Counted from the stretch's first letter, positions 37,001-59,577 are shown. The stretch: DNA of 64,000 nucleotides from Amphiura filiformis (GCF_039555335.1 NC_092646.1:23042893-23106892), one strand, 5' to 3'. Notes: generated by a model from the sequence alone, not told the origin. Made by a program: numbers and translations.

Positions 37001-40000
37001 CCCCATTGAAGTGAAAATTTAAAAACTTCTGGAAAACCGGGATTGAAAATTGCCGAAATGGCTGGTTCCCCTCAATCAGGCTCATATCAGCCCCTCCCCA
37101 TTGAATCATTCATGCCCAGACCATTTGGGCTTTGGGTTTGTGATTGTCAAGGCATTTTGCTCAATTGAAAGAGCTCAACAATGTGTGCAATTCTGTTGGT
37201 CAGACATCCAATGGACGGACTTTTCAAATAGGGTTGATCAGTCGGGATGATTATTTTAAATGTGTTTTTTTCTGGAGGTAACTCATGCACAAGCTTGTAA
37301 TGTTTGAATGTTTCTATGTTCCAGTGTATGATGTGTAAGCCTCTTCCCTTGTTTGTTCCTAAAATATCACCCAAAATCTGTCAAAATTTGATGATTTTTT
37401 GCATAAGAAACATTTTAATGTTCTGAAATTTTTTCAAACATTTTCAAAATTAATGCATTTTAACCAAAAACTGGCTTAACCCCCACCTAAAAAAGGCTCA
37501 GTATTTGGACAATTTTGATCAGTTGAACATGAAAAGGGTGGTCCCCTTATTAATTTTTCTTATAATTTAGACCTTCTTGTCAGTGTGGTATATTATTTTT
37601 AACATTCTGTCGCTGAAAAGTGGACCTTTTTGCCGATTTGGGGTCACAGTGTGTGTCACACGCCCCCTGGCTACAGACTTGCCATCTATCTCCAATGAAT
37701 ACTGTATAAGTGGTAATTTTCGCGAATTGGAGTGAGAGAGACATTTTTGGGATTGTTATTTTCGCGATTGCCTAGTCTTGCCCTATACTTGCAATACATT
37801 ATACATATATTCGCGAGGTGTTAATTTCGAGGATGGCACTCCATTCGCGAAATCGGCGAAAATAAAACCCTCGCGAAAATTACCACTTATACAGTATAAT
37901 AAGCTAGAGACTGCCTATGGCAAATCTGTAATTCTATATACCCAGACCAGATCAAAGTGCTATAAAAATCAAAATATGCAATATTTGTATACTGTGAATG
38001 CAATTTCCAATAAGGGACGCACCATTTTGACTTCCAGGAGGTGGACTTCCCCCACTACATGAGCAAAAAAAACTCCCCCACTACATGAGCAAAAAAAAAC
38101 TTCCCCACTACATGAGCAAAAAAACTTCCCCACTACATGAGCAAAAAAAACTTCCCCCACTACATGAGCAAAAAAAAACCTCCCCCCACTACATGAGCAA
38201 AAAAAAACTTCCCCCACTACATGAGCAAAAAAACTTCCCCACTACATGAGCAAAAAAAAACTTCCCCACTACATGAGCAAAAAAACTTCCCCCACTACAT
38301 GAGCAAAAAAACTTCCCCCACTACATGAGCAAAAAAACTTCCCCCACTACATGAGCAAAAAAACACTTCCCCCACTACATGAGCAAAAAAACCTTTCCCC
38401 ACTATCACTAAAAAAATTTCCTCACCAACACTTAACTTTAAAATTGCTATATCATTCCAACGCAGTATTAGATTGTTGATCAGGTGGATCCAGAACGGTA
38501 AACTACCGGGGCTAAAATTGAAAATGAAAATTGAATGGGAAAAATGGCCGCGAAGTGGTCATCGCGTCGCGCTTCTGCGATGCAGGGGGTGTCTGAGGGT
38601 AGAAACTTTTGGAAAATGAAGACCTAACTGAACCCATTTGGTGGACCATTTTTGCACTAAATTGAAGTTTAAAAAGCTGTTAATTTGTGAAATGACGGCC
38701 CAAATCGTTGAACTCAGAATCTTCGGATTTAATATAAAACTTAAATTTTACTGTTAATTAGTAATTAAAGCACTTCAGTCATAGTCTTTCACATGGTATT
38801 TTAGTACACCATTGGGCATCTTAATACTAATAACGGCGTGTCCGTCCGTCCAGCGCTCTATCGCGTTCCACGCTCACGCTGGTGCACTATCGCGTGCTTT
38901 CAGCGGTGCGCTATCGCGAGTATCAATGGGAGTGTGCGAGGTACAGTGCATGCATCGGAAAAGCATTACAGTGTGACTAACAGGTGCATCTCATCGGACC
39001 AATAATTATAGGCCTTATTTTCAACACATATTTCAATACCGAACACGTGCACACACCAAACACGTGTATATAGGCCTATTTCAGCAGAACATGACTATTT
39101 CCGGAATCCTCCAGAATTGTTAACATAAAAATTATCCGTTGTGTTAAGGCCTATGAATGTTTTTGCGTTCACGTTTCTCGCGATTGATTTCATTACTTTA
39201 GTAACAGCCTATATCCACGTCCAGATACTAATTTCGGTTACTCTAAATGTGGTAGCAGGGCAGGGGCAAATGATGGGTTTCCAGATTATGGGTAGGCCTA
39301 CCGAACTACCGAAGTAGGGGTAACGGGTTCGGGTAATTAGAAATAGGCCTATCACGAGAAGCGCCCGACCCGAGAACCGCGAAATCTAGTTACATATACA
39401 ATCATGTAAAAAGTACAAATTCAAGAATAATTGAGGGTGTTGCTAGTGGCGTAAAAGACTCATTCAGTGATCCTAGCGAAAGTGTAAAAATATTAAAATT
39501 ATTCATAAATTGTTAAAAGTGAAGGATAAGTCATTCAAATTGTCATTTGGTATTTTCGAAATATTTGTCAAAAAAAATTGGCAAAAAACAAAGAAAACAG
39601 CAGTATTGGCAAAGCCCCATTCAAATACATGTAGCTAATTTATATAACTGTCATCTTACTATAATTTGCCTAATGTGGGGTGCGTGTAGGGGTGTGGGGG
39701 TGCGTGTGTGTGTGCCAAAGGCTGTCAGTTTTTATCCGAGCCTCGCCAAATTCGCACGGGGGATGCAGAAAAATATGGGGAGTGTCGTAAGCTACCTTCG
39801 GTCGCAATCGGAGGTCGAAGGTCAAAGGTCAAATTTTAAACTTGGTCCGATTGGGCTGTAATTTATACGGGAGATCAAGGAAAATATGGGGAGTGTCCAA
39901 AGCTACTTTCGTTCGAAATCGGCGGTCGAAGGTCAAAGGTCAAATTTTAAACATGGTCCGATTGGGCTATATGGGAGATCAAGGAAAATATGGGGAGTGT

Positions 40001-40682
40001 CCTACGCTACCTTCGGTCGAAATTGGAGGTCGAAGGTCAAAGGTCAAATTTTAAACTTGGTCCGATTGGGCTGTAATTAATATGGGAGATCGAGCAAAAT
40101 ATGGGGAGTGTCCTAAGCTACCTTCGGTCGAGGTCGAAGGTCAAAGGTCAAATTTTATGCAAACGGCTCCGTCAGTTTTGATCCGAGCCTCGCCAAATTC
40201 GCACAGGGGATGGAGAAAAATACGGTGAGTGTCATAAGCTACCTTCGGTCGAAATCGGAGGTCGAAGGTCAAAGGTCAAATTTTAAACTTGGTCCGATTG
40301 GGCTGTAACTCGGTGGGTGGAATCCTTGATGTGAGGGGAATGCAGAAGTCACATTTGGTTGAGATCAGTAAAAAATTGGGCTCAAAATCGGCAAAAATTT
40401 GATTTCTTTTTTGTTTTATCCAAAATCCACAGTAACCATGGCATGGCACCCTGAATGCCCTCTCTGTTAATCTATAAATAGCTCTGATGATATATGCTCT
40501 GATCATGCTGATACATGTATAGGCCTTGCAGAATATAACAACTCTTGCTATAAAACCAATGTCTTCCACTGTGGGTTTTATATTAACCCATTAAATGAAG
40601 ACACAAGTAACTATATAAATTAATTGATTTAATTAATTATCGGTAAATAAGTGATGTCATCTGCGGTCAAAAGTCATCCAAA

Positions 40683-40713
<31 letters not shown>

Positions 40714-43700
40714 ACAAACAAATGGTCATCAAAATTAATTAATTTATGTCATCCGAGGTCAAAGGTCATCAGAGGTCAAAGGTCATGTGGGCTCCGGCTA
40801 TGTTGCTGTTATGCATACGGGCATATTGAGCTTAATAATCATTTACGCATACGGGTATTAACTCTAGTTATGTAAATTACAGATTCATGTATAAATTCTT
40901 TATTTTTGTCTTAAATACACAGCTTTCAGCTGAACCACTAGCAGGCTATAATGATGTTAACACATTTATGACAATGACAAAGGTACCAAAATCTGAATTT
41001 TGATGATTTTTACAATCGTCCGAATGAGCAAATCACCGAGCAAATCACTGAATGGGCCTTTAAGTATTTTAGATATGTGTATACAATTTATATAATGGGC
41101 CATTCCAGATAAAGAGTGCACAGGGGGTATAGAGGGCGCTTATATATGCATGACTGAACACATCCCACAATGCACCCTGTCCAAATAAAATTACCATATC
41201 AAACAATGGGTTGAGCCAAGATAAACACTTGTTATGTAATCAAAATGAAACTTTGACCTTCGAGGTGAATATAAAGATCACTCTATATTATAGTGTGTGA
41301 ATACAGGCAAACACAATTGGCTGTGTGCTAATGTTGCATATTGTGTACAAGGCAAGGTACGCTTTGGCAGTGACAATTCAACAGTCTGTTTTCTCGGATT
41401 TCTACAGAATTCTACTTAAGCCTTAGGGGCCGTGCAATATAATTATGAGCCCCAGGGGTAAAATTTCTGAACGCCCAGCAAAAATCACTTACTTCCCTTC
41501 TAGGCCTGCCACAAATCTCCCCCGCCAGCCAACAAATCTCCCCCCCTTGAATTGCACATGCCAAATTTTTAGGATTTCTTGCCCATGGCATGACCATGTT
41601 GCCCCCCTCGCTCATAATTATTGCACAGCCCGTATTATACACAGTGAACATGCTGAAGATTAGTCTGTGCTGTGTTACGTGTTGCTATGGAGACCGACAC
41701 ACAACACTGTCTTAGTTTTGGAATTGGCAGGAGAGCATTAAATAACTCTTCTGGAGCCTTTCAGGAGAGCTGTTTTAAATAAGAGCATTTACGTCATTAA
41801 AATGGATTAATTGTTAAGAGAATTTATGTTCAACTAATTTAAGGAGAGCTAAAAATTGCTCTCCTATATCAGATTTAAGGAGAGCAGTAGAGAGCAATTG
41901 CCCTCGCTCTCCTCAAAAGGCAGTCCTTAGCTGTCTCATGTACCATGCAAGACTGATAATAGCTCAGCCAGGCATGGAGTGCTGAATTTTGCAACCATGC
42001 ATGCAGAACGTACAGTATATGTACGTATGGTGGTAGCCAACCAGGTATAGGTAGGCTCTAGATATAAAACATTTTTTGATAAGCTTACACATATTTCGGT
42101 CTTTTCCCCATATTTTACTCTATACTCACACGTGACAAATGTGCTTTACTCATGATAGCTGTGCAAGAATCATACATCAAAAAACTATCGAACACTGAGA
42201 AATCTAATTCATTGAATTTCGCGCAGGATGGAAACTAGTCTTGTTTGCATATCACTGACAGATATTTTACATGTCTTTCTAAGGGGCTGTGCAATAATTA
42301 TGAGCCCTGGGGAGGGTAAAATTGGGGGGGGCAAGAAATTTTGGCGAGCCAAAAGGGGGGGCAAGCTATTTTTGGCCAGCCGAGAGGGGGGGGCAAGCGA
42401 TTTTTGGCACACATTCATGGGGCGCCTTTTAAATAAATCGCTCTAAAAAGGCTTAGGAAAACAGTACAGAAACGCTTTAATATGCAAATTTTCCTGCTCG
42501 CTGCGCTTGCAACATATATCTAGACCATTTAAGGTTTGAAAATTGGGATCCCAAAAATTTGGCATGTGTAAGGGGGGGGGGCAAAGATTTTTGGCAGGCC
42601 GAGAGGGGGGGGCCAGCGATTTTTGGCGGGCCGTTCGGAAATTTTACCCCCCCGGGGGGGAAAATAATTATTGCACAGCCCCTAAATACATCGGCCTAAT
42701 CCAGTCTTTTCTGATATTTTGTGTACATATTTCTTTCCCTGCTTAGAATTATGATTACAAGTCAACTTTTTGCAGACTAACAAGAAAATATAGATTTCGT
42801 CGAGTGTGGACGTGTGTATTGCACGCTCCGGCCACGCATGTGAACCGTATGTAATTTCATCTATAGGCGTATGATGCCCTTACACCAACCGAAGCGACTG
42901 ACTTGTGAATTACAATTATTACGATCAGCATGGCAAATGAACTCAAAGATCTGATCAACAACGAGGAGTTTAAAACTTTTATGAAGGTAACATTATCAGA
43001 AGTAATGAAAGAATCTCTAGATCACCATACAACACGGATTGAAGAAATGGAGGCGAGACATTGCAAGCGTATAGAAGAAATGAATGAGAAACACACAGAA
43101 CATGTTAAACAAATGGAAAAGAAGTATAAAGAAATGGAAGCATCACAGATGAGCCGAGCACAGCATGTTGATAACAAAATCCAGAAAATGGAAGAACAAT
43201 ATACCAGACGTATCGAGCAACTGGAAGGGGAAATACATGAGTTCAGTTGCAACAACACACGAATGGAGTCTGTTTCCTCTAACCAGCAAGAGCAACTGGA
43301 TGATCTTCTCTTAGACATTGAAAACAAATCCATGGCACTGGAGAACCAGATGCAATATTCTAGGCGTAACTGCCTTCTAGTGACTGGTATACCAGAACAT
43401 AAGGGAGAGAAATCGGAAGATACTGATGAGGTGATCAAAACATTTGCGAGTGATTATCTGGGAGTTAACATCGAAGATGTGGATATTGACCGCACGCATC
43501 GTCTTGGCAAGCCACAGGCAGGGAAAAACAGACCAATTATTGTCAAATTCACCAGATATAACGCCCGCCTAGCGGTTATGAAGGAAAGAAGGAAACTCAA
43601 GGGTAAGAAAATGGGAATCCAGGAACATTTGACTTCCTTTACCCAGCACATGTTGAACATGGCAAATCAGCTCTCACAAAAAGCACCGTGGGTTAAAAAA

Positions 43701-46700: not shown

Positions 46701-49700
46701 CATTACATTGATAAATATGAAATTCTAAATGATAAGCAATTTGGCTTTAGATCTAAACATTCTACCTATATGGCTATCTTGGAATTTATTGACAAAATTA
46801 GTAATGCTGTCGAAAACAATGAGACAACTGTTGGGATTTTCTTAGATTTGTCGAAAGCCTTTGACACTATCGACCATAGTATTTTATTACATAAACTGGA
46901 ACATTATGGTTTTAGAGGAAACGTTTTAAAATGGTTTAAAGATTACTTACATAATAGAAAACAGTATGTGTATTACAATTCTTGTAAATCTGAATATAAA
47001 GATATAATATGTGGAGTACCTCAAGGCTCCATCCTAGGCCCATTATTGTTCATTTTGTATGTTAATGATATCATAAATACTTCCACCATTCTAAAATTTG
47101 TCTTGTTTGCCGATGATACTACTATAACTTATTCACATAAGGACATTGTGTCCAAATACGATCTTATCAACAATGAATTAAAAGAAGTTAATAATTGGTT
47201 TAAGGCTAATAAGCTATCAGTGAATGCAAGCAAGACTAATTATATGGTGCTTGGTACAAATCACAAAACATCACGCGTATTGTACAATGTTACTAATAAT
47301 ATTATATTAGATAATGTAATCCTGGAAAGGTTGAATAAGACCAAATTTCTTGGAGTGACAATTGATGAGAATCTAACTTGGAAATTTCATATTACCAACA
47401 TCTCAAAGAATATATCTAGAGGTGTTGGTGTAATAAACCAACTGAAACATTTTGTTCCTGAGCGAATAATGTATTCACTATATTGTACTTTAATACTTCC
47501 TTACATAAACTACGGTATCTTAGCATGGGGAAATACTTGTCAAAAATATTTGGAAAAGATTTTCAAACTTCAAAAAAAGCCCTTAGAATGATATCGAATA
47601 GTCACTTTTTAAGTCACTCAGCTCCTATTTTCAAGAATTACAATTTGCTTAATGTTTATGATAGTTATGATCTCGAACTAAGCACTTTTATGTACAAGTA
47701 TAATACCAATCAGTTACCAAAGGCCTTCAATAGTTATTTCGTTGAGCAGAGGAATCACCTCAGGTATCACACAAGAAACGCTGAAGATTACAAGATCTGT
47801 CTTACAAAAACAGAGTTTGCTAACAAAACAATAAGAACCGCCGGGCCAAGAAAATGGCATTCGATCGACAGATGCGCCAAAACGGCTACATCAGTAAAAC
47901 TCTTTAGATCCCAAATTAAAACAAACCTTATGGAAATGTACACTTAATACCTCTTAGTTTTGATTTACTTAGTTTTATTTTTCTCCCTTTTAAAACAAAA
48001 AATCGATTAAAATTAACCGATCTTTTAGCTTCTATACTATATTCACAAAATGTCAGCTTTCTTTTGCGATATACGTGAGCATATGTTATGAAATCCTAAT
48101 TTGTCTTACACTTATATTCTGCATGTTCTTTATTCATCATTTTTCCTGCTTAGTTCGTTTCTACATGAATGTATGAAAGAGGGTGGGGGGGGTGTTTGTA
48201 TGTATGTAATTGTATTTTATTAGACAAATTAAGAAACGTAGGTTAAGGTTAAGGGGGTGCTTGTTCAGGCCTTTTTGGCCTTCTGAGCATCTCCTCATTC
48301 AAATGTGTTGTTTAGCTGTTATTGTATTGTTGTATTTTGAATGAAATAAAGACTGATTGATTGATTGATTGATTAATAAAAACAAGAGCACTTTGGAATA
48401 ATCAATCCAGATATTGCATATCGAACTCAAACCATCTCTGTACTGTATACAAACTAGTCACCACCATCATATTCAAGGATATCTATTTGCCCTATTGCAT
48501 TTAAAGTAGTCCAGCTGAACAGATTTAAAATCATTTTCTCAGCATGTACTTTCACCGACACCATCCCAGTTTTAATATGGCATCAAAACAATGTATCCGA
48601 GTCACATATTTCTTGAAAAATGTAACAAATAAGCTCAATTTTTAAGAGGCCTATTTTATGGTTACACAATTTGACTCGGAAGCTTGTGGTGGTGCTCTGG
48701 TCTGGCCCTCACGTCGTCTGCTAATTATTAGTAAGTTGGGCCGGGCACTTTGTGTAAAACACATTCGCACTAACTGGATGCATCTTGGAAGGGGGGGGGG
48801 GGTGCATAGAAATTCTTCTTCTGACCAGGTTTGGTTCAATATTGCTTCATGTAATTTTAATTAGGGTTAGGATTAGGTTTAGGATTAGGATTAGCTAACA
48901 CAATTACATGGATTGACCTAAGGTTTAGACAATTATTACATTTGATTAAGTTTTTGTTCCATTTTTGAAGGGGGGGTGATTTACACAATATCTAGGTCTT
49001 CATACCAGTCTACATTTTACACCATCAAGCTGCATGGATCATTTTATAGACTTAAACCAAGAACTGGTCAATATTCCTTGTCATAGTGGACTGTTATATT
49101 CATGAGGTCAAAGTTTCATTTACTCTATTATGTAATCTTATTTGGACAGGGAGCATTGTGGGATGTGTTCAGTCATGCATAGCTAAGCGCCCTCTATAGG
49201 GAGGGTGCATGTTTTATCTGGAATGGCCCAATACAATACCTGGCCAACTGGACTGGTTGGGCAAACACCTCGCTTACCCCTGGCCAAAACGTCATCACCA
49301 CTAATACCCAGGCCTGTCTTTGCTGTATCCTCATCATTTCTTTGTGTCAACACATCAGTAGCATCATCAGAACTGATAACTTGGATTACCTAAAAGAGTT
49401 GAAACAGATAAATTTCATTATTTATTTGTTACTTTGATAAATTTTTGATTTAATGCAACAAAGGCTAATGGCACATATAAAAAAAAAGGTACTAAGCACT
49501 GGCTGCACCAGGAATTTTTTTTCTTTTCGGGGGAGGACAAAGTGAAGGGGGGGGTAAAAGTAAAATCAACAAATTTTGGCCAAAATTGTTGCAAAAAGTG
49601 AAAATTTTCGTAATTTTGGTTAAAAGTGGGGGGGTAAGAAAAATATTTAGGGGGACAAATTCACCCTTTGCCCCTACCCCCTCCCTCGAGTGGCGCCACT

Positions 49701-52700
49701 GGTACTAAATCAAAAATATAGTGGGGTAGAAATAGAGAAGAAAAATTCAATAACTTCCCCTTCATGATATTATTTCACACCAAAGTATGCTAAAGCCTTG
49801 TCACTTTTTGTATTTCCTGTCTTCAGTAGATAGCACAACTAAGCATGCTAAGTAGGGAATAGTTCATCATTGATTACCATGATTACCCACTGTGACACTA
49901 ACTTGGACAGCATTTTCAGCCTATAGTATAACGTAAATGAGGTGGAAAAGGCAAACAAAACAACCGCAAATTTGGATAATTTAGCTGTATAATGGTATAG
50001 AAAACAAATCAAGCATAATATTTTGAGTAAAATGAATCAGCTACGTAATTCCAGAAATCGGGATGTGTCATCAGTTTTTGGGTGCATCAACTTCAAAGGC
50101 ATGTTTTGCAGTTTGTCTAGTCTATCATAACCGAGAACATGAGAAACCACTCTGGTCATCAGTGGTGTGCCCCCTCCCCCCCCCCTATCGATTGCAAAAT
50201 CCCATAGGAAAATTGCCAAAAAATGGCTTGTGTCCCCTAATCAGACCCGTGCCCCCCCAATATGATGACCCACACTACCAGCCCTCGAATTAACCCACAG
50301 CACCCATGGCATTTTGCCATCGGTGCCCATCCCCACTGCCGTAATGCCCTCAAAATATGTCCTTTACCAAGGCAGTCACTTGCCGTGCCCTCTAATGAAG
50401 TTGCCGTCGGTGCCCCAGCCCTGCCCCTTCATTATAAAATCATCTATCTATCTATGTTTGTGTGTGTTTTCTTCACTTTTGAGAAATTGTTCTCAAATTT
50501 TCATCAGTTGCCATGATGCCCTCTTGAAATATTACAAACTGCCATGCTGCCTTGCCTTTTCAGTGAAAATCCAAGGCAATTATCAATTTGCCCTAAAAAA
50601 GTTGCTGTGCCCCTTCAGATCCTTAATTCTACTGCTGGTGGTCATAAGTATGCATGCTGAGTAAATCATGTAGGCCTAAGTAAATTAGGATATAAAAAAA
50701 AAATTCAAGTTCAACATATCTGTGGCTTGCTCATCTTCTGTGGTGTTCCCTATTCATTATATAATGGTCACCAACTAAATGCTGCATATAAATAATTAAA
50801 ATAAATAATAATCAGTGGCGAAGCTAGAGGTGGGCGACTTGCTCACCCTGGAAAAATCTGGGGGGAAATTTTGGAGGACAAGGGCAAAAAAGAAAGGAAA
50901 GGGGAAACGAAAAAAGAAATGGAAAAAGGAAAGGAAAGATGGAAATAAGAAAGAAAGGGAAAGGAAGAAGAGAAAGGGAAGAGGGAATTTGGGAAAGAAA
51001 AGGTCAAGAGGGAAGGAAAAGCAACAGAGAGGAAACAAGAATAATAAAAAAAGAGGGAAATGAAAAAAAGGAAGTCTAAGAGGGATGGGGTAGAAATAGG
51101 AAAAGGGGAACGAAAGATGGAAGAAGAAAATATTAATTTTATATTTTGTGCAATCTTCATCATTTGAACATTGACTTTGTGCATTGGATCCTGCTTTGTA
51201 TACATTCTGCTGCAGGTTTTTAACAAATTATCTTGTGTGCTTTTAATTATTGCCAGTGTGTATTTCATATAAATTTCTGTGTAAACTGTACGATTTAAGG
51301 TATTAAGGGTTTTTTAGTAATGTATTGGTTTGTCTTTCTTTTGTTCAGCGCCTTGAGGTGTACGCGTAAGGTGCTATAAAAATGCGGGTTTGTTGTTGTT
51401 GTTGTAAAGAAAACAACTTTTATGGGGAAGCAATTCTTGCAGAAGGGGAAGGAGTTTAGTTTAGTTTATTTATTTACCATATCAATTAACAACGCAAAGA
51501 AAATATATATATTATTATAATACATAAGGCCATCTTAATTAAATCATGTGTCTCAAAGCTGCCGCGCGCATTAGTAAAATCGTGCGCTTAGTCCTCTTTG
51601 AAAATCAAGAAATTCATTTTTGTTTTTTATCACTATCTATTTTTTTCAAACAAAAAGGCGAAAATAAATATCAAAATTTCGTATTTGATTTCAAGTTTTT
51701 GATTTTTTCGCAAACTTTGGACACGAAAATAATGAAAGAGAAGAATAATAGTTTGTAGCAGTGACTTTTTTGTCTGCTATTCCATCATTTGCAACACTGG
51801 ATATTTTTTGCACAAAATGCTTGTCCGAAATCCTGTACTGAAACATAACAAAATTAAAATTAAAAAAAAATACAGTAAAAAACACTGCATTCGGCATTAG
51901 GTTGTCAATTTCTCGCAAGCTTTGAGACACAGGATTCCATTCAGATGGCCTAATGAAAGTATGACCAAAAAAAGAGCAAAGCTCGAGTGTAAGAAAGGGG
52001 AAGAAATTGAAGATTATGAAGAGGGAAAGGATATTTAAGGAAGGGAACGGAAAGTGATTGAGAATATACTAATTGAGGGGAAGGAATTTAAGTGAGTGTA
52101 ATAATGGAAGGGGAAAGGAATGAGAGAAAGGGAAGAAATTGAAGAATATGAAGAAGACGGAAAGAGAAGGAAAATTTCAGGAAGAAAAGGGGAAGTAATT
52201 TAATGGAAGGGGAAGGAATGAGAGAAAGTGGAAGAAAGGTAAACTTAAGAAAGAAAAGGGAAAATATACGTTGGCCAAATTGAGTTCAGCATGGGAAATT
52301 GTTGCTATACATAGGCCTAGCGCCTGTCATATGTATGAAAGAACAACTCAAATTCATCATCTGTGTCTATTGAGCATGTGAGAAATAGCATGTATGAAAG
52401 AACCACCCAATTCCGTGATTTGAGTCTTGTAACACATTGATTGAAATCCAGTATGTATAAAAGTCCACTTGTAACACATTCAGTGACTTTTGATATGGGT
52501 TTAATAAAGGAACGTGTGTGGTTTATATTACATGGCAGAATGCTTATCAACATTATACATACCTGTGTGCTTTATTTTGTATTATCTTACTAGCGGTAAT
52601 CTCATTCCAACGTTGTTGTCTTTGTATGATTAAAAAAACCACCCAAGTCCAAAATTTAAAATGAACCCTTTATACAAAGTCCCTGAAATGCTAATCGTCA

Positions 52701-54433
52701 TACTTTATATAGTTTAATCCATTCATTTGCACATAAAACTTACCATATTGACCAGGCAAATCTAACTTAAGGAATTAAAATGATACACAGGTTTTTCTCT
52801 CAAAATCACTTCCCATGGACTTGGGTGGGTTTTGTATTCATGTATTCAATTACTTACCTAAATTATTTAGGGGAAAGTAATTTAATGGAAGGGGAAGGAA
52901 TGAGCGATGATTATAAATGTTCACCACTGACCACTTTAACTTGTATGGCTCAAAATTCGAGCCGCTGTCCAGAGACAATGTACTACTATAGTTCCTTGTA
53001 GTGACTAGTACTAGGTTTGCCTTAAAAGTGGGGGCAGGGAAAATACCTGGGTGAAAGGCCTACTATATGATCAAAAAAAATGTTTTGTGATGTTCTTGAA
53101 AGGTGTTGTTGAACTTGAAACGGGAACCGCATCAGAAACATACCGGGACACATACATTTTTCTGAATCTTTTCGCATACGGGGATGCAGAAAAATACGGG
53201 AGTGTCGTAAGCTACCTTCGGTCGAAATCAGAGGTCGAAGGTCAAAGGTCAAATTTTAAACTTGGTCCGATTGGTCTGTAACTCGGTGGGTGGAATCCTT
53301 GATGCTAGGGGAATGCGGAGGTCACATTTGGTTGAAATCGGTAATGAATTGGGCTCAAAATCGGCGAAAATGTGGATCTTTGTTAAAAATCCTAAATCCA
53401 CAGTGCCACCCTGTGTGCACTGTCTGTTCATCTATAAATAGCTCTGATGCATTCTGTACATGTATATACTCGCTCTATACAGTGTTTATATTAACCCTTT
53501 AAGTAAGAAAGGGAGTAGTCAGTAAAATAAATACATGCATACATTAATTAAATTAATTAATGTCATCCAAGGTCAACGGTCATCCTGGGTCAAAGGTCAT
53601 ATGGGGTCAACGGGGTGAAACAGCCATCAAAGGTCATCAAACAGAGGTCAAAATTCATGTGGGTTCATGCTATGTAATTCATACCGGAGATCAAGGAAAA
53701 TACGGGGAGTGTCCTAAGCTACCTTCGGTCAAAATCGGAGGTCGAAGGTCAAAGGTCAAATTTTAAACTTGGTCCGATTGGGCTGTAATTCATACGGGAG
53801 ATCAAGGAAAATACAGGGAGTGACCTAAGATACCTTCGGTCGAAATCGGAGGTTGAAGGTCAAAGGTCAAATTTTAAACTTGATCCGATTGGGCTGTAAT
53901 TCATACGGGAGATCAAGGAAAATATGGGGAGTGTCCTACCCTACCTTCGGTCAAAATCGGAGGTCGAAGGTCAAAGGTCAAATTTTAAACTTGGTCCGAT
54001 TGGGCTGTAATTCATATGGGAGATCAAGGAAAATATGAGGAGTGTCCTACACTACCTTCGGTCGAAATCGGAGGTCGAAGGTCAAAGGTCAATTTTTAAA
54101 CTTGGTCCGATTAGGCTGTAATTTATACGAGAGATAAAGGAAAATATGGGGAGTGTCCTAAGCTACTTTCGGTCGAATGCGGGGATCACATTTGGTTGCG
54201 ATCGGTAAAGGATTGGGCTCAAAATCCGCGAAAATGTGAATTTTCAAAAGTCAGTGACCATGGTATAAACAATTGCACTTGCTGCCTGTGTTGCTGTTAT
54301 GCATATGGCCATACGGGTATACCTCTAGTACGGTAATTATAAATTGGCTTACCTGTGTCGTCATCATCACGCTTAGCAGTAGGACTACTTTTCCCTTCAC
54401 GGTTACCTGCTTGCTGCTTCGCATTTGATACAT
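16011..54433 (-). CDS. TNFR-superfamily-like receptor B, eleven-exon gene model
   Basis: This is the gene-level entry. Minus-strand exons are 54433-54353, 49389-49278, 33299-33232, 32265-32096, 30694-30598, 29521-29389, 25603-25454, 24621-24592, 20063-20013, 17559-17374 and 16033-16011. All junctions are in phase, giving about 366 residues. The predicted order is signal peptide (1 to about 27), acidic segment, cysteine-rich TNFR repeats (about 82-247), Pro/Ser/Thr stalk, TM helix (about 316-338) and a basic tail of under 30 residues with no death domain. The pattern CSQCPGN...KECS...DSVCGC...GYF is characteristic of TNFRSF cysteine-rich domains. The function, binding a TNF-family ligand, is inferred from the family. 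The tail suggests a decoy-like or adaptor-dependent receptor. The six exons from 33.3 to 25.4 kb and the first two are the firmest; the stalk exons and the last exon are tentative. Confidence 0.75.
16108..16404. mobile_element. MITE with poly-G end, inverse copy of 34003-34386
   Basis: It reads GGGGGTACTCAAGTTTGG at the left and 'cgtccccgtatggtcatttg' at the right. The same sequence appears reverse-complemented at 34003-34386. The interior has 'accattgatataccaa'-type repeats. An A-rich tract follows (16420-16470). Confidence 0.7.
17374..17559 (-). CDS. receptor B, transmembrane exon
   Basis: The exon encodes [14 protein letters not shown], a hydrophobic helix ([20 protein letters not shown]), then a basic stop-transfer run ([15 protein letters not shown]) and YNN before donor G|GTAGGT at 17373. 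There are two possible acceptors: CCTTCAG with the exon starting at 17566, and a tandem AG seven bases inside, starting at 17559. Only the inner one keeps frame with the 20013 exon; the outer would need an unseen exon ending in phase 0. The unspliced reading continues into a repeat (GGGGCCCTGGGCCC) and is not coding. Confidence 0.75.
17949..19852. mobile_element. TA-flanked MITE (TIR CCGTATTCGTTCCAATAAGC), split by a hAT-like insert
   Basis: The left end CCGTATTCGTTCCAATAAGC is inverted at the right end (GCACTTATTGGAATGAATAC). TA dinucleotides at 17947-17948 and 19853-19854 flank it. Removing the insert at 18166-19710 leaves a short element with 'taagcgccc' repeats at both ends. It lies in the intron between the 20-kb stalk exon and the TM exon of receptor B. 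Confidence 0.8.
18166..19710. mobile_element. non-autonomous hAT-like transposon
   Basis: The TIR CAGGGGCGGACTGG is inverted at the right end (CCAGTCCGCCCCTG). The 8-bp CGTCTCAG is duplicated directly outside (18158-18165 and 19711-19718). An 8-bp duplication with a CAGGGG-type TIR is the hAT pattern. No transposase ORF remains. The interior has a purine-rich tract (18245-18365), 'gcctaagacataggcccta' repeats (18380-18470) and a further repeat at about 18830-19145 ending 'ctatacgccactg'. Confidence 0.85.
20013..20063 (-). CDS. receptor B, stalk exon 2
   Basis: Acceptor TATTGTTGTTAG and donor AAA|GTAAGTAC bracket 51 bases that are open only in the required frame (phase 1 in, phase 1 out). It encodes [16 protein letters not shown], a hydrophilic Thr/Asn/His stretch that suits an extracellular stalk. 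The other two frames are closed. Short length keeps this tentative, but splice sites, frame and phase all agree with the flanking exons. Confidence 0.6.
21170..21366. mobile_element. foldback element
   Basis: 'gagaataagggtattgttttt' and 'tgcatctatcgtctcatata' are inverted around a GAGGCGAAGCCGAG centre. This is the palindromic end of a MITE within the intron. The surrounding intron (19856-24591) holds no supported exon other than the stalk exon at 20013-20063. Confidence 0.75.
22489..22635. repeat. 86-bp tandem duplication
   Basis: GTGAATTCCCACTGAGGAAA and the following 'gtggtttaggccctatagga' occur at 22489 and again at 22575, nearly identical. The ORF across it is not supported as coding. 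Confidence 0.85.
24592..24621 (-). CDS. receptor B, stalk exon 1 (candidate)
   Basis: Thirty bases between a CTTGTTCCAG acceptor and a GAAG|GTATAT donor encode [10 protein letters not shown] in the required phase (1 in, 1 out). A stronger donor, TTG|GTAAGT, lies 15 bases further (exon end 24577). Using it keeps phase but brings TGA at 24586-24584 into frame, truncating the protein before the TM helix. The polypyrimidine tract is poor, so the exon is a candidate only. Confidence 0.4.
25454..25603 (-). CDS. receptor B, TNFR cysteine-rich exon 4
   Basis: Acceptor CGTTATTTTAG and donor G|GTAAGATT, phase 1 in and out. It encodes [15 protein letters not shown], then [13 protein letters not shown] and a linker [18 protein letters not shown]. 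The CxxCxxGY core with a later cysteine is the first half of a TNFR-type module. The Pro/Thr-rich end marks passage into the stalk. It joins seamlessly to the 29389 exon to give [10 protein letters not shown]. Confidence 0.85.
25657..25830. mobile_element. MITE fragment (TIR GGGGCTGTGCAATAATTATG)
   Basis: It begins AGGGGCTGTGCAATAATTAT, as at 42280 and, less perfectly, 41427 and 61664. It shares 'gcaagcaatttttggcacaca' with 42400. The right terminus is missing. A neighbouring phrase 'gatctggtccatgggggcca' (25826) recurs at 30515. Confidence 0.65.
25997..26454. mobile_element. foldback element with about 100-bp arms
   Basis: 'aatctaccaaaaaaaagcgttg' at the left is inverted as 'caacgctttttggtagatt' at the right. 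The identity extends through 'ccccacctcggctcac'. The central 250 bp are AT-rich and contain no transposase. Confidence 0.85.
26590..27840. repeat. complex higher-order tandem repeat (about 0.5-kb unit)
   Basis: Phrases 'ggttctttgtagccct', 'gttggatatcc', 'tattgagcggcggttgt' and 'ccctctatcgagggcta' recur many times. A block containing 'tacatcccgaggatgctttt' is repeated at about 27247 and 27758, a spacing near 511 bp. The ORF at 27183 is a by-product. 27841-28090 continues with degenerate 'gataatttatcttgccatgttgact' units. Confidence 0.8.
28653..28720 (-). other. tRNA-like sequence (tRNA pseudogene or SINE head)
   Basis: On the minus strand it starts GGTCCGTGGCCTAATGGTTA and has a CTCCAGA loop (CCA, Trp-like) and a B-box GAGTTCGAAACC. 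Only four of seven acceptor pairs form, and the anticodon stem is broken. It is probably a decayed tRNA or the head of a SINE rather than an active tRNA. Confidence 0.5.
29389..29521 (-). CDS. receptor B, TNFR cysteine-rich exon 3
   Basis: Acceptor TTCTTTTTTAG and donor G|GTAGGTGC, phase 0 in, phase 1 out. It encodes [20 protein letters not shown], then [24 protein letters not shown]. The EC...D-x-VCxC...GYF pattern is the canonical end and start of consecutive TNFR modules. N-X-T/S sites are present. Phase and sense both join to the 30598 exon (GNMVL-IKECS). Confidence 0.92.
30280..30450. repeat. degenerate tandem repeat in intron
   Basis: Successive 'ttgcaaaatcgccaaca' and 'gtaaaatcgcc' units at roughly 18-36 bp spacing. 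The ORF here ([18 protein letters not shown]...) is a product of the repetition. Confidence 0.7.
30598..30694 (-). CDS. receptor B, TNFR cysteine-rich exon 2
   Basis: Acceptor GTAACAACAG and donor TTA|GTGAGT, phase 2 in and 0 out, exactly as needed by both neighbours. It encodes [20 protein letters not shown], then [12 protein letters not shown]. The CxxCPGxxVL motif followed by KECS in the next exon is a strong TNFR cysteine-rich-domain signature. An NCS glycosylation site is present. A longer ORF in another frame overlaps but lacks the cysteine pattern. Confidence 0.9.
30892..31242. mobile_element. TTAA-flanked foldback MITE
   Basis: TTAA (30888-30891 and 31243-31246) borders GGGGTACTACACC and its inverse GGTGTAGTACCCCC. 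The arms extend over 100 bp ('ttgcattttctcaaaattat' inverted near 31190). It is piggyBac-like by target preference. The plus-strand ORF inside is spurious. Confidence 0.85.
31258..31802. mobile_element. foldback MITE carrying eight GGGAATTCCC palindromes
   Basis: The ends GGGCTATTCCAGAAATTAA and TTAATTTCTGGAATAGCCC are inverted, followed by 'cctaaagaagacatg' and its inverse. Exact GGGAATTCCC starts at 31331, 31406, 31458, 31493, 31555, 31630, 31663 and 31714. It lies in intron 4 of receptor B, between exons 30598-30694 and 32096-32265. Confidence 0.85.
32096..32265 (-). CDS. receptor B, TNFR cysteine-rich exon 1
   Basis: Acceptor GGCCTGGCAG precedes GAA at 32265 and donor TC|GTAAGT follows 32096 (phase 0 in, 2 out). 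It encodes [13 protein letters not shown], then [13 protein letters not shown] and [13 protein letters not shown]. Two CxxC pairs and a closely spaced CTC/CVC pattern fit TNFR modules with some rearrangement of spacing. The ORF starting MMLVAQ is the wrong frame. Confidence 0.88.
32395..32545. repeat. palindromic CACTCTTTTAGAGTG cluster
   Basis: Many interleaved 'cactct' and 'agagtg' units form overlapping hairpins ('agagtgaaattcactct', 'aatcactcaaaaagggtgatt'). It is intronic, with no gene. Confidence 0.75.
32716..33051 (-). pseudogene. 3' end of a CR1/L2-type LINE
   Basis: The minus-strand reading [20 protein letters not shown], then [14 protein letters not shown], is the classic C-terminus of these ORF2 proteins. 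It is followed by a 3' UTR with GCGCTATATAAGTGCTGG and an (ATT)n tail (32716-32741 on plus). Everything upstream is missing, as expected of 5' truncation at insertion. It has the same orientation as receptor B, in its intron 3. Confidence 0.85.
33232..33299 (-). CDS. receptor B, exon 3 (entry to cysteine-rich region)
   Basis: Acceptor TCTAGATGCAG and donor ACAG|GTAAAAG bracket 68 bases (phase 1 in, 0 out). It encodes [20 protein letters not shown] plus IQ. It contributes the first cysteine before EPCIHC in the next exon. The phases match both the GCCAGGG|GTAAGC donor at 49278 and the 32265 acceptor. Confidence 0.75.
33437..33751. mobile_element. MITE (TIR ACCCCGGGGGGGCACTCA)
   Basis: The left end ACCCCGGGGGGGCACTCAA is inverted at the right ('gagtgcccccccggggtt'). 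The interior is made of 'gagcttaaagaactg'-type units. It is related to but distinct from the 34003 element. Confidence 0.8.
34003..34386. mobile_element. MITE, inverse copy of 16108 element
   Basis: 'cagtacaaatgaccatacgg' at the left and 'aaaccaaacttgagtacccc' at the right mirror the ends at 16108-16404. 'ggtatatcaatgggtcc' units fill the interior. Confidence 0.75.
34890..35192. mobile_element. foldback element with about 90-bp arms
   Basis: 'gttacttgcctcatttcatt' at the left is matched by 'aatgaaatgaggcaagtaac' at the right. The inversion runs through 'ctgagaaatttagtgaagtt'. The unique centre is about 110 bp. Confidence 0.85.
35220..35715. repeat. internal-repeat element of CCAACAGTTTG units
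   Basis: 'gcccaacagttt', 'aactgttggtca' and 'aaatatttt' recur about a dozen times with both polarities. The design is similar to the 10706 element but with another motif. 35716-36439 has no supported gene. Confidence 0.65.
36440..36650. repeat. interspersed repeat ('gatgtgcccccctcagaagt')
   Basis: The string GGTCATCGCGTC, 'gggtgtctgagggg' and 'gaagccatttggtggacca' is repeated at 38540-38670, and parts occur near 4800-4920 and 6440-6490. The ORFs reading across it are not conserved in frame. Confidence 0.65.
37697..37900. mobile_element. MITE (TIR ACTGTATAAGTGGTAATTTT)
   Basis: ACTGTATAAGTGGTAATTTT at the left is exactly inverted at the right (AAAATTACCACTTATACAGT). Both ends are flanked by T/TA. 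The interior has further TTTTCGCGA motifs. It is about 200 bp with no ORF. Confidence 0.9.
38049..38410. repeat. minisatellite, 13 units of about 27 bp
   Basis: CTTCCCCCACTACATGAGC plus a run of A (6-9) is repeated 13 times, with length differences in the A and C runs. A last degenerate unit follows at 38397. The minus-strand open frame (FFAHVVGEV repeats) shifts with homopolymer length and is not a gene. There is no spacer diversity, so it is not CRISPR. Confidence 0.95.
39715..40330. repeat. 111-bp-type tandem repeat with DR1 motifs, array 1
   Basis: Five units contain ACCTTCGGTCG...GAAGGTCAAAGGTCAAATTT and GGTCCGATTGGGCTG. Exact AGGTCAAAGGTCA starts at 39819, 39930, 40034, 40138 and 40266. 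Two more follow at 40756 and 40773. The ORFs 39547-40080 derive from the repeats. It lies in intron 2 of receptor B. Confidence 0.9.
41096..41290. repeat. repeat, inverse copy of 49000-49232
   Basis: 'gggccattccagataaa' and 'catgactgaacacatcccac' reappear reverse-complemented at 49232-49090, together with 'tgaaactttgacct'. The two copies face each other about 8 kb apart and enclose the LINE. Confidence 0.75.
41427..41635. mobile_element. MITE (TIR GGGGCCGTGCAATATAATTATG)
   Basis: The right end GCTCATAATTATTGCACAGC is the inverse of the left. It is the same family as 42280-42687 and 25657-25830. The short ORFs are incidental. Confidence 0.75.
41706..41928. mobile_element. MITE (GGACTGTC family), copy 2
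   Basis: It matches 14698-14898 through 'caggagagcattaaata', 'ctcttctggagcctt' and 'tcctcaaaaggcagtcc'. It differs by a small insertion. Confidence 0.8.
42280..42687. mobile_element. MITE (TIR AGGGGCTGTGCAATAATTAT), full copy
   Basis: The left AGGGGCTGTGCAATAATTAT is inverted at the right (ATAATTATTGCACAGCCCCT). The interior repeats 'gagaggggggggcaagcgat' in two blocks (42380 and 42600). It is the best-preserved member of this family in the window. Confidence 0.85.
42930..43919 (+). CDS. LINE ORF1 protein (coiled coil + RRM-like)
   Basis: 329 codons, intact. Residues about 20-145 are a heptad-rich coiled coil with repeated [18 protein letters not shown] and [13 protein letters not shown] units. 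Residues about 145-240 contain [30 protein letters not shown] and [16 protein letters not shown], the L1-ORF1-like (Transposase_22) RNA-binding fold. The C-terminal part (IQEHLT..., [12 protein letters not shown]) matches the family's CTD. Its role is nucleic-acid chaperoning in the retrotransposon RNP. The start ATG at 42930 is the first in frame before the coiled coil. The intact frame contrasts with the broken ORF2. Confidence 0.9.
   Translation: MANELKDLINNEEFKTFMKVTLSEVMKESLDHHTTRIEEMEARHCKRIEEMNEKHTEHVKQMEKKYKEMEASQMSRAQHVDNKIQKMEEQYTRRIEQLEGEIHEFSCNNTRMESVSSNQQEQLDDLLLDIENKSMALENQMQYSRRNCLLVTGIPEHKGEKSEDTDEVIKTFASDYLGVNIEDVDIDRTHRLGKPQAGKNRPIIVKFTRYNARLAVMKERRKLKGKKMGIQEHLTSFTQHMLNMANQLSQKAPWVKKVWTWDGRVTCLVQTNIEVPEKKVTVTCQDDLDRIWRKGAEMVKSGTLKKQWKSRIGDASYNRPARESREKTD
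43920..44675. other. LINE inter-ORF region
   Basis: About 755 bp of AT-rich sequence without coding potential separate ORF1 from ORF2. A short direct duplication 'aatattatatcgatactcaa' lies at about 44404-44443. Such a long spacer is unusual for LINEs and could hide a decayed segment. Confidence 0.5.
44676..47947 (+). pseudogene. LINE ORF2: PHD finger, endonuclease, reverse transcriptase
   Basis: Starting at ATG 44676, CIVC...CKIC...HKKC...CNKC gives a PHD-type zinc finger, interrupted by an in-frame TAA at 44805. The APE endonuclease follows ([20 protein letters not shown]; then [11 protein letters not shown] and VSDHL in another frame from about 45330). The RT is at 46341-47591, with [54 protein letters not shown] and FLGVTID. 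The C-terminal region ([10 protein letters not shown]...) is at 47483-47947 in a further frame. One stop and at least three frameshifts make it inactive. The family reaction is target-primed reverse transcription. Confidence 0.9.
48375..48999. other. intronic sequence without a supported gene
   Basis: It contains a poly-G stretch (48790) and a TTAGGATTAGG-like run (48865-48895). ORFs here have no domain or splice support. Confidence 0.4.
49000..49232. repeat. repeat, inverse copy of 41096-41290
   Basis: It ends ATCTGGAATGGCCCA, the inverse of the 41096 start, and shares 'gtgggatgtgttcagtcatg'. The end lies about 45 bp downstream (in gene sense) of receptor B exon 2. Confidence 0.75.
49278..49389 (-). 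CDS. receptor B, exon 2 (acidic N-terminal segment)
   Basis: Acceptor CAACTCTTTTAG precedes 49389 and donor G|GTAAGC follows 49278 (phase 0 in, 1 out). It encodes [20 protein letters not shown], then [17 protein letters not shown]. It continues the signal peptide of exon 1 into a hydrophilic Asp-rich N-terminus. Reading through the donor would add [13 protein letters not shown] before a second GT, an alternative that breaks phase with the next exon. It has no cysteines, so it precedes the TNFR modules. Confidence 0.7.
50810..51130. repeat. purine-rich repeat
   Basis: 'agtggcgaagctagaggtgg' leads into about 240 bp of nearly pure A/G (GGAAAGGGGAAACGAAAAAAG...). The same type of tract lies at 5600-5690, 18245-18365 and 51960-52270. 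It looks like a family-specific simple-sequence core. ORFs on either strand are low-complexity artefacts. Confidence 0.75.
51130..51410 (+). mobile_element. SINE/LINE 3' tail
   Basis: 'cagcgccttgaggtgtacgc', 'ggtgctataaaaatgcgg' and a (GTT)n end form the conserved 3' tail shared by many LINE/SINE pairs. There is no recognisable tRNA head, so it is a 5'-truncated copy. Confidence 0.5.
51960..52270. repeat. purine-rich repeat, second block
   Basis: 'gaggggaaggaatgagagaaag' and 'aattgaagaatatgaagaa' recur, and a piece reappears at 52870-52905. No gene is seen. 52271-52627 shows only degenerate 'gtatgaaagaac' repeats. Confidence 0.65.
52628..52833. mobile_element. short TIR element
   Basis: AAAACCACCCAAGTCCA at the left is inverted at the right (TGGACTTGGGTGGGTTTT). 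It is about 200 bp with an AT-rich centre. Confidence 0.6.
53155..54235. repeat. 111-bp tandem repeat with DR1 motifs, array 2
   Basis: It is the same unit as 39715-40330. Exact AGGTCAAAGGTCA starts at 53239, 53746, 53857, 53968 and 54079, and the last four are spaced exactly 111 bp. The flanking text (CGGTGGGTGGAATCC, 'gaggtcacatttggttg') is also shared with array 1, so both are copies of one larger repeat. It occupies intron 1 of receptor B, ending about 120 bp from exon 1. Confidence 0.9.
54353..54433 (-). CDS. receptor B, exon 1 (signal peptide)
   Basis: The minus-strand ATG at 54433 opens 27 codons ending ACACAG|GTAAGCC (phase 0). It reads [20 protein letters not shown] then SVMMTTQ, a basic n-region plus hydrophobic core typical of a signal peptide. 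A second ATG at codon 4 is an alternative start. The next exon begins in phase 0 with VIQVISSDD, where cleavage could occur. The distance to the divergent plus-strand first exon is 679 bp. Confidence 0.7.
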
Positions 54434-55112: not shown

Positions 55113-55193
55113 ATGTCTACATCATTTTCTTCTTCCCAAAGGAAAGACGAGTTGACATTCCGCCTACATGTATTTATTTTGGTATTATTAGTG
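55113..55193 (+). CDS. putative first exon of a third (divergent) receptor gene
   Basis: ATG at 55113 opens 27 codons ending TTAGTG|GTAAGTAAC, phase 0. The peptide MSTSFSSSQRKDELTFRLHV then FILVLLV ends in a hydrophobic core like a signal peptide. Length and splice phase equal exon 1 of receptor B, suggesting a paralogous head-to-head gene. Later exons were not found in the window and are presumably beyond 64000 or hidden in repeats. An upstream ATG at 55091 is in another frame. Confidence 0.5.
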
Positions 55194-55680: not shown

Positions 55681-55776
55681 GATCCCCTGCTCTTTTCGAA
55701 TAGCCTGTGACGTTCTTTAACGTGCACACTACATTAATGTGAGAAAATATGCATGTACACGGGACCGACAGCTTAA
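55681..55776 (-). mobile_element. tRNA-derived SINE, distal part (split)
   Basis: Sequence with 'cgttctttaacgtgcacac' and 'tacacgggaccgacagctt' ends at TTAA 55773-55776. It appears to continue at TTAA 60016-60019, because the two halves read as one repeat once 55777-60015 is removed. Confidence 0.5.
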
Positions 55777-56044
55777 GGTTGGTCTGAACCCTGGAAATAT
55801 GGAAACTTTCGGGCCTCATAACTTCTAAATTGTTGGTCCAAAGCATATAAAAGTATTATATTTAGAATGGCAAAGATTTGATAAGTTCATCTGTGAGGTC
55901 AAATTTGGGCCAAAATGGCACTTTTGGCCCCAAATCCCAAAAATAACGGTTTTTGGCCCACTTCTTTTTTGTGCATCGTAACAAAAAAATTCTTGGGCCA
56001 AAATTTTTTTTTTATTAATTTTTAAAAACTAGATCAAAATATCT

Positions 56045-59000
56045 CCCTAAACCTGTAGTCTCTTACCTCACTTGTGTATGAAGGACCATACTTATCCTAA
56101 TACACTTGTGTGATGGACCATACAAGGAGGAGACGTCCCCGGTAACGAGTGCTAGTGTAGATAGAGTAGTATCAGCACGTAGTATAGCACGTGAGAGTTA
56201 GGTGGACAACCGACTTGTGAGATAACGAGTAAGCGTCCTGGTCTACCTTCAAGTGGCAGGGGTTGTTAACCCTTTGATTTAATTCAATGGGGACGGACAG
56301 ACCAGGGTGGCTGGGCATTTGTTGAGTCTACATCAATCTACTGATTTCCAGCTGGTAGTGACCTGCAGGGAGAGAAGTCAAGGTCCTTCGCCCCGCTTTG
56401 GTATAAAAAGACCACTAAACCCAACAACATGATGAGTCGAATTTACAGCACCAGGGTTAAAGCCCTGATATTAACCAGTCACGATTTCCTCAGGGCCTGG
56501 AAAGCCAAGAGCATGATGACGCATCAACCTCAAAGCGTATTGGAAGGGATGATGATCTTCCTTCATCAGGGGAACACCATACCGATCCCCAATTCGACGG
56601 GCTGCTGCTGATAACCCTGACGGAAAGAGGGCTTTTTAAACGCATAAAGCAATCAATTGGGATTGGCACATGGAATGTGCGCACACTGCATCAAACTGGC
56701 AATCTAGAATTGCTTATAAGTGAACTTGATAATTATGACTGGGAAGTGATGGGTATCGCCAAACCCATTTCACAATACAAGGAGAATTCAAACAAGATGG
56801 ACTCCAATTTCTTTGCTCAAGCAATGAAGATTTTCACAGAAAAGGAGTGGCTATAGTGCTAAACAAAAATGCACAGAAGTCACTTTTAGGATATAATCCA
56901 ATATCTCAGAGAATAATCTCAGCAAGGCTGCGCACCCAAGTAGGAGCAGCAACAATTATCCAGGTCTATGCTCCAAATACCAGCAACACTGAAGAAGAAA
57001 TGGATGAGTTCTATGAAGATCTACAACGAACTATAAATGAAGCCCCATCCCAAGACATGTTGATAGTGATGGGAGACTTCAATTCCAAAGTAGGCAAGGA
57101 TTGGGAACCATGGAATGGTATACTTGGAAAATTTGGCTGTGGTGAAAGAAATCAAAGAGGAGAAAAACTCCTAAACTTTTGCGCCACCAACAACCTCTGC
57201 ATATCAAACACCAAATTCAAACAATCAAAGTTTAGCCGTGAATGGACCTGGGAATCCCCAGATGGTACAACAAGGAACAAAATTGACTTCATTCTTATTC
57301 AACAAAAATGGAATAGCAGCATATCAAACTCACGGAGCTACCCTAGCGCCGATATTGGATCAGACCATCAGATGGTCCTTGCTGATCTAAAACTCAAGCT
57401 GAAAGTGAAACCAAAGGCAAACAGACTTCCTCGCTACGAGGTTACAAAACTCAAATCGGAAGAGATTAGAGAGTCATATGAAGTGACAATAGGTGGTAGA
57501 TTCAAACCCCTATTAAACATCCCAGATACTGATGTCGAGATTGAAGACCTATGGAATGACATCAGAAATACAATCAATGAAACTTCTGATAAACTTCTTG
57601 GAAAGAAAAAACCACAACAACAGAAGCCATGGATAAGTACTGAGGTCCTAGAGTTAAGCAGACAGAGAAGTAAAGTGAAACTGCAGCGCTTGGAGGACCC
57701 TACTCTGAAACCCAAGTACAACTTTCTAAATAGGGAAATAAAACGGAAGTCGAAAGAGTGTAAAGACAACTGGCTGCGTGAAGTGTGCAAAGATGTGGAT
57801 GATGCGCATGAAGCAAAGAAAACCAAGCAGATTTATGCCACCATAAAAACAATCACAGGGACTCGCTCAACATCGATGTCAAGTGTCAAAGACAAAAATG
57901 GCAACGTGCTAACTGAAGATAAGGAAGTCAAGGATAGATGGAAAGAAAGTTTTGAAGAATTATTCAACAAAGTCAGTCCTGATGACACCTCCATCCTCCA
58001 AACAATTCCAACCATTCCTGAAGAAGGGGAGGAAGCAAACATCCTGATAGACGAAGTTCGAGCAGCCATCGGTCATCTCAAAACAGGCAAATCCCTGGTT
58101 TTGATGGGATCTCAGCAGAGGAACTGAAAGCTACAGGAGAACCAGGTGTCAGGATTATACACAAACTGTGCAACAGAATATGGGACACGGGGGAAATTCC
58201 AGAAGACTGGGGAAGAGCTGTTATTGTTCCAATTTATAAGAAAAGGACAAGTTAGACTGCTCCAATTACAGAGGATCAGCCTCCTTAGCCTTGCAGGAAA
58301 AGTATTCTGTAGCATACTCCATAAAAAGAATGCAAACCCGAACAGAGGAAATACTTGCTGAATCCCAAGCAGGCTTCCGACCGGGAAGGAGCACCATAGA
58401 CCAACTCTTCACCCTAAGACAACTGGCTGAAAAGTACAACGAAAAACAGAAACCATTGTACTGCTGCTATATAGACTACCAGAAGGCCTTCGACACTGTA
58501 TGGCAAGAGGGTCTGTGGCAAGCCATGCGACACCTGGGCTACCCGTCACTCTATGGAACATCTCAAAGCACTGTAAGAGTCAATGGAGAGCTTACACCTT
58601 GGTTTACCACTAGGACAGGAGTTCATCAAGGATGCATACTGTCTCCACAACTTTTCAACATTCTGCTGGAACTAGTGTTAAGGTTGGCTATCCAAGACGA
58701 ACAGATAGGTGCAAAAGTGCAAGGGCAGTACATCAACAACCTCCGCCGCAGACGATATTGTCCTCCTGGCTGAAACAAAAGAAGACCTACAGTTTCTGGT
58801 TACAAGAGTTGATACTCTCAGCAAGAAGTTTGGACTTACTATTAATATCAGCAAAACTGAAGTCCAGGTCATCAACAGAGAAAAAGTGAAACTTGATATT
58901 CTGATTGGCGGGAAGCCCTCAAGCAGGTGGAGGATTTCAGATACCTGGGAGGGGTAATATCAGACCCCCCCAGCAATTAAAACGATACCACACGTAGGAT

Positions 59001-59562: not shown

Positions 59563-59577
59563 GATCAAAATATCTAG
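56649..59577 (+). pseudogene. RTE-like endonuclease / reverse transcriptase
   Basis: IGTWNVRTLHQTGNLELLI (from about 56659) starts the endonuclease. After a frame change, 56847-58127 carries VYAPNTS, VMGDFNSKVG, EWTWESPDGTTRNKIDFIL and IGSDHQMV. The RT begins after about 58090 in a new frame, then SQAGFRPGRSTIDQLF, YIDYQKAFDTVW and TGVHQGCILSPQLFN lie in 58291-58773. ADDIVLLAE is in yet another frame from about 58745. A degraded C-terminal region extends to about 59577, with RPRGRPEK near 59370. Several frameshifts and stops make it non-functional. The motifs match RTE/BovB-type proteins. Confidence 0.88.

Follow-up and report, generated by a model that had tools for sequence, protein, structure and literature searches.

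Five perfect DR1 sites near a candidate first exon of Amphiura filiformis appear, as judged from the sequence and with a probability of roughly 0.7, to be part of a non-coding interspersed repeat of ~1.2 kb with a central 111-bp minisatellite, in which the DR1s are carried as copied passengers; the "interspersed family" is known here from two copies in one window, by which we mean the whole stretch of 64,000 nt that was analysed. Every one of the window's 12 perfect DR1s falls inside these two copies, always on a single strand, and the copies have flanks and array in common, which argues for the passenger reading. The copy number of the DR1s is most simply explained by multiplication of the repeat. 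The DR1s themselves are putative sites for HNF4, RXR or COUP-TF-type receptors, which could bind them in open chromatin.

DR1 Sites in Two Copies of One Repeat

Scanning the 64,000-nt window for perfect AGGTCA-A-AGGTCA yielded plus-strand starts at 53239, 53746, 53857, 53968, and 54079, with successive spacings of 507, 111, 111, and 111 bp, and thereby recovered every position behind the claim of a previous sequence-only reading that five perfect DR1s occur here, the last four at exact 111-bp spacing. These sites belong to repeat copy B (53171..54346, plus strand, ~1.2 kb), whose edges are inferred from where the alignment of the two copies ends. Its edge unit carries the DR1 at 53239..53251, and comparison of the copies delimits a 3' flank with a GGTCA-rich tail (53285..53672, plus strand). 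The array (53673..54177, plus strand), a tandem repeat of 4.5 copies of the 111-bp unit, contains the DR1s at 53746..53758, 53857..53869, 53968..53980, and 54079..54091, all found on the plus strand by motif scan; the last unit (54118..54188, plus strand) is partial and lacks the motif portion, and a second, shortened 3' flank (54172..54268, plus strand) is recognised by copy comparison.

Seven further perfect DR1s are all located within repeat copy A (39713..40896, plus strand, edges likewise inferred), which was absent from the earlier reading. Five of them, at 39819, 39930, 40034, 40138, and 40266, lie in a plus-strand array of 5.0 unit copies (39756..40308) with variable unit spacing, and a second edge segment within this copy (40158..40200, plus strand) repeats 39713-39753. 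The other two, at 40756 and 40773, lie in the tail in a 17-bp tandem repeat (40748..40786, plus strand) which contains GGTCA; since the tail has a GGTCA repeat of its own, GGTCA-rich simple sequence seems to recur in the element. The 61,610 window bases outside both copies contain no perfect DR1. Allowing at most one mismatch, the window holds 22 DR1 matches compared to 0.26 expected, and none of 100 shuffles reached 22.

In a DR1, a single base separates two directly repeated AGGTCA hexads, an arrangement found in all 12 perfect sites. Each copy contains arrayed 111-bp monomers with three hexads at a 7-bp period, the third of which in array units sits 7 bp upstream of the DR1 and reads AGGTCG, with the variants CGGTCG in unit 39930 and AGGTTG in unit 53857. 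In both copies there is one DR1 per monomer wherever the monomer is not truncated ahead of the motif. In the array of copy B all three plus-strand frames are broken and no minus-strand frame of 60 codons is contained wholly within it; a single unit showed no unusual folding, and Rfam gave no match at gathering score in the window.

Motif Constancy and Possible Regulatory Use

The claim that the motif is intact amid substitutions was borne out: the alignment of nine units over 103 columns contains 51 non-consensus cells, none of them in the motif. The 13-bp motif is invariant in 9/9 compared units, whereas variation is seen in 31 of the 90 columns outside it. This invariance has a P of 0.007 if the motif is chosen beforehand and of 0.008 without CpG columns. 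The unit's longest stretch of invariant columns, 16 in number, includes the motif, and column shuffling produces a stretch of that length with P 0.059; comparison with the 30 columns 3' of the motif gives P 0.063, and the four units of the B array alone give P 0.15. In the tail, both perfect DR1s of copy A are altered in copy B, and a local alignment shows differences in 2/26 motif columns vs 11/55 others (P 0.21), the motif thus changing no faster. The comparison of substitutions inside and outside the motif, which had been proposed as a check, therefore speaks for the motif when it is prechosen but is marginal otherwise, and selection on the motif is undecided because of these values once motif choice or neighbours are allowed for and because of the tail. 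Taken as sequence evidence, the invariant motif in nine units is what mild constraint would predict, and it counts against the passenger reading, as does the lower divergence of the unit than of the 3' flank where single-unit parts of the copies are compared.

We consider it unlikely that the array is a host enhancer, in which HNF4/RXR/COUP-TF-type receptors on intron 1 DR1s control the candidate gene "receptor B" and selection preserves the motif. Each copy does hold several perfect consensus sites, the motif is invariant within the longest invariant run, candidate exon 1 is 262 bp away, and binding in cells can occur at Alu repeats bearing sites of this kind (PMC1785376). However, the invariance is marginal after motif choice or local background, and the second copy 13 kb off means that a location beside the candidate exon is not special. 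Moreover, the "receptor B" gene model is predicted from open frames and splice sites judged by eye, and two downstream candidate exons have no Pfam match above cut-off. Candidate exon 1 (54353..54433, minus strand) is predicted as an open frame of 27 codons that begins with ATG and runs up to a CAG|GTAAG donor; the previously given distance of about 260 bp fits the interval from 54091 to base 54353, after which the donor follows, but the exon itself is predicted by eye. As to the earlier interpretation that a repeat distributing clustered DR1s could wire host genes to nuclear-receptor control, the consensus motif and the repeat-borne clustering stand and a second copy has been added, whereas receptor control of the host gene and selection on the motif stay hypothetical.

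Little probability is likewise given to the idea that the DR1s serve the element, a mobile repeat that would exploit nuclear receptors of the host in order to be transcribed or to spread, and whose family, rather than this host gene, would be under constraint. The motif is present in each unit reaching that far in both copies, and among single-unit parts compared between copies the unit is less diverged (4/107 differences) than the 3' flank (18/162; Fisher P 0.039). Exchange among units, however, would keep units similar as well, the copies number two, and no coding region was found.

Relationship of the Copies and Origin of the Array

Copies A and B have the same orientation and lie 13 kb apart; a 3' flank, the array, and a right-end segment are common to both, and alignment blocks of 390-642 bp are 76-89% identical. 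A local segmental duplication of a minisatellite within one long intron, without a mobile element, would suit two copies in one window and in one orientation as well as the finding of no terminal inverted repeats at the inferred edges, but it is improbable given that the similarity ends at or near the repeat, the outer flanks of the copies do not align, and the parts are ordered differently in A and B. For the passenger reading, an internal 7-bp repeat (AAGGTCA) would have brought hexads side by side in an ancestral monomer, which may have been amplified via unequal exchange or replication, and the element would have moved or duplicated together with its array. The array is probably older than the separation of the copies, since the edge units 39819 and 40266 of A and 53239 of B cluster (support 91/90) and the internal units of A are not set apart from those of B, in a grouping in which 0/6 inner branches attain the 95/80 mark.

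Comparison With Known Elements

Repeats spreading receptor sites are already known, such as Alu, and the present repeat is another of that sort. Alu elements carry DR2 RAREs (PMC1785376) and HNF4alpha sites (PMC3252374), and the present element resembles them in being dispersed and in multiplying direct repeats of the AGGTCA type. Unlike Alu, a primate element of whose DR2s several recruit RAR in ChIP, it has putative receptor sites of the DR1 type, and each element holds several of them in a minisatellite of 111-bp units. In PMC3252374, AGGTCAxAGGTCA is named as the DR1 to which HNF4alpha binds, and CAAAG is considered the core of greater relevance; CAAAG also occurs here.

In layout, both copies (n=2) have the central tandem repeats between common flanks of the HINE/DINE-1 type (PMC4067079). 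Cg_HINE of the oyster comprises non-autonomous Helentrons with satellite-like central repeats (PMC7492417); flank, short central tandem array, flank, simple sequence adjoining the array, and no coding found are shared features. Unlike Cg_HINE, the present repeat is without sub-terminal inverted repeats at its inferred ends: for the ~11-15 bp pairs of HINE, a search of three edge pairings gave no pair of 11 bp with at most one mismatch, although a misplaced edge might conceal such pairs. Elements of the HINE type are also marked by insertion at TT without target-site duplication and by a palindrome near the 3' end; in minus-strand folding of three left edges, run with no shuffled control, a long stem forms in one (copy A, 40150-40215) and the other two fold otherwise. 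Of a tRNA-derived SINE, no tRNA-like head was found (ARAGORN 0 genes, Rfam 0 matches in the window), although decayed heads can escape. The cNRE (PMC10995137), an element of 32 bp from the promoter of a quail myosin gene that was assayed in zebrafish and mouse transgenics, also has three hexads close together, a likeness limited to hexad count.

DR1 sites and the repeat that carries them

The cluster of DR1 sites (AGGTCA-A-AGGTCA, the type bound by HNF4/RXR/COUP-TF receptors) is real, and how many sites there are and how they are spaced is most simply accounted for by a minisatellite within a repeat. The five perfect sites of the sequence-only reading were all recovered, at 53239, 53746, 53857, 53968, and 54079, the last four at a spacing of 111 bp. 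Seven further perfect sites, at 39819, 39930, 40034, 40138, 40266, 40756, and 40773, bring the window to 12, every one on the plus strand. Allowing at most one mismatch, AGGTCANAGGTCA has 22 matches in the window vs. 0.26 expected, a number reached in none of 100 shuffles, while perfect hexad pairs at the other spacings from DR0 to DR8 amount to one DR4 and one DR8. In most monomers the DR1 lies within AGGTCG-A-AGGTCA-A-AGGTCA, i.e., three hexads with a 7-bp period, of which the third, upstream of the DR1, is altered in two of nine units.

Tandem Repeats Finder reported two 111-bp arrays with nearly identical consensus, at 39756-40308 (5.0 copies, 76% matches) and 53673-54177 (4.5 copies, 92% matches). 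When the window was aligned to itself, both arrays, together with portions of the adjoining sequence, proved to belong to a single repeat present in two copies, here called A and B. In copy A (about 39713-40896), an edge segment is followed by four units, the last of them truncated; then come another edge segment, a single unit, the 3′ flank, and a tail rich in GGTCA. The second edge segment, at 40158, duplicates the first with 92.7% identity over 151 columns. Copy B (about 53171-54346) consists of an edge unit, the 3′ flank and tail as in A, and the array, after which come a partial unit lacking the motif (54118-54188), a 3′ flank of reduced length, and a right-end segment that is common to both copies. 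The outer edges of both copies were set by judgement. The tail contains a separate 17-bp repeat including GGTCA. With A and B masked, nhmmer searches with four pieces of the repeat detected no further copy in the window; in the unmasked control every piece recovered both copies, apart from the 5′ edge piece, a sequence present in copy A only. Another tandem array, of a 26-bp unit (38045-38404, 13.5 copies, 91% matches), lies about 1.3 kb from copy A.

When nine units were placed in a maximum-likelihood tree, the edge unit of B (53239) grouped with those of A (39819 and 40266; support 91/90); the internal units of A and B are not separated, and every inner branch falls short of the 95/80 mark. 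The array is therefore probably older than the separation of the two copies, judging from these unit sequences. The DR1 itself may have been created by short duplications and would then have been multiplied through amplification of the unit.

Motif conservation

The sequence-only reading had described the motif as intact amid substitutions in the surrounding units. Among nine array units, 31 of 103 columns vary (51 changed cells), and none of the 13 motif columns does. This count includes nine of the ten motif-bearing array units, omitting 40138, which is truncated and also carries an upstream deletion; one gap in unit 53239 was placed by hand, and the units were recognised by the motif itself, which biases the comparison in favour of the motif. 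In the two copies at hand, the invariance has P 0.007 if the motif is taken as chosen beforehand (0.008 without CpG columns), but its distinction from the rest of the unit weakens under stricter comparisons: an invariant run of at least 16 columns arises in a column-shuffled unit with P 0.059, and a comparison confined to the motif plus the 30 columns on its 3′ side gives P 0.063. For the four units of the B array alone, P is 0.15.

In local alignments of the tails, 40756 corresponds to 53570 and 40773 to 53587, each B counterpart having one change, whereas a global alignment gives a different pairing, with a broken first hexad and AGGTCAAAATTCA. Both tail DR1s of A are imperfect in B, yet they change no faster than their surroundings (locally aligned, 2 of 26 motif columns vs. 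11 of 55 others, P 0.21), so the tail gives no evidence of ordinary motif decay. Comparing the single-unit parts of the two copies, 4 of 107 positions differ in the unit and 18 of 162 in the 3′ flank (Fisher P 0.039), and this smaller divergence of the unit may reflect either constraint or exchange among units.

Known relatives and rejected readings

Repeats that spread nuclear-receptor sites are already known: Alu elements are described with DR2 sites, ChIP showing RAR recruitment to several of them (PMC1785376), and with HNF4alpha sites (PMC3252374). HINE or DINE-1-like elements have a satellite-like centre (PMC7492417; PMC4067079), with members mentioned from sea urchin and mollusc (PMC4067079). 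The present repeat is similar in layout, but a search at its inferred ends detected no sub-terminal inverted repeats, and for that reason HINE membership was not assigned. Six words of the 111-bp unit do not occur in the open-licence literature searched, and a literature search on receptor sites in echinoderm repeats returned nothing on the subject, judged by titles and the opening lines of abstracts.

A peptide-coding repeat was ruled out because the plus-strand frames are interrupted and the spacing in A varies. No RNA family matched at gathering score, no tRNA-like head was found, and one unit as single-stranded DNA has no unusual fold (z -0.15 and 0.00). Exact unit fragments had no match in viral contigs or prokaryote genomes, nor the B array in phage records, all of them collections that are uninformative on animal genomes.

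Possible receptor control and the neighbourhood of copy B

Receptor B is a predicted gene whose intron 1 was proposed to hold the array, a plausible placement. Its candidate exon 1 (54433-54353, minus strand) is an open frame, hydrophobic by eye in its second half, that terminates at a strong donor; the minus strand of the window has three such MAG|GTRAG sites in all. The right edge inferred for copy B lies about 7 bp from this donor. Two further minus-strand candidates with splice consensus contain cysteines (about 25603-25454) and a hydrophobic stretch (about 17566-17374), and neither had a Pfam match above cut-off. If the model is right, both repeat copies may share one long intron. On the plus strand, 55113-55193 is an open frame of 27 codons that starts with ATG, is hydrophobic at its end, and precedes a GTAAGT; it may be the first exon of a divergent gene.

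That an invertebrate family of minisatellite-bearing mobile elements spreads ready-made DR1 clusters maintained by selection for receptor binding, and thereby puts genes including a receptor gene under HNF4/RXR/COUP-TF-type control, is in our estimate improbable, at roughly one in ten; receptor wiring is a testable idea rather than a result. If the element were common, each copy would add several consensus DR1s, offering a natural test of whether host receptors use repeat-borne clusters. Motif counts near genes can also stem from repeat amplification instead of regulation.

Elsewhere in the window, a LINE-like region at 56461-59574, with Pfam endonuclease-reverse transcriptase and RVT_1 matches, is flanked by 273-bp inverted repeats (55773-56044 and 59747-60019, 95% identical), and a second one lies at 42909-47944 on the plus strand (RVT_1 match 46323-47588, E 3.8e-36). 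The stretch 61801-62426 forms a long palindrome, aligning at 83% with its reverse complement across 640 columns; smaller palindromes lie at 8380-8490, 11752-12066, 13648-13968, 30888-31246, and 34891-35189. TAGGCCTA, an excess of which is reminiscent of echinoderm or hemichordate DNA, occurs 17 times in the window vs. 0.7 expected from base composition.
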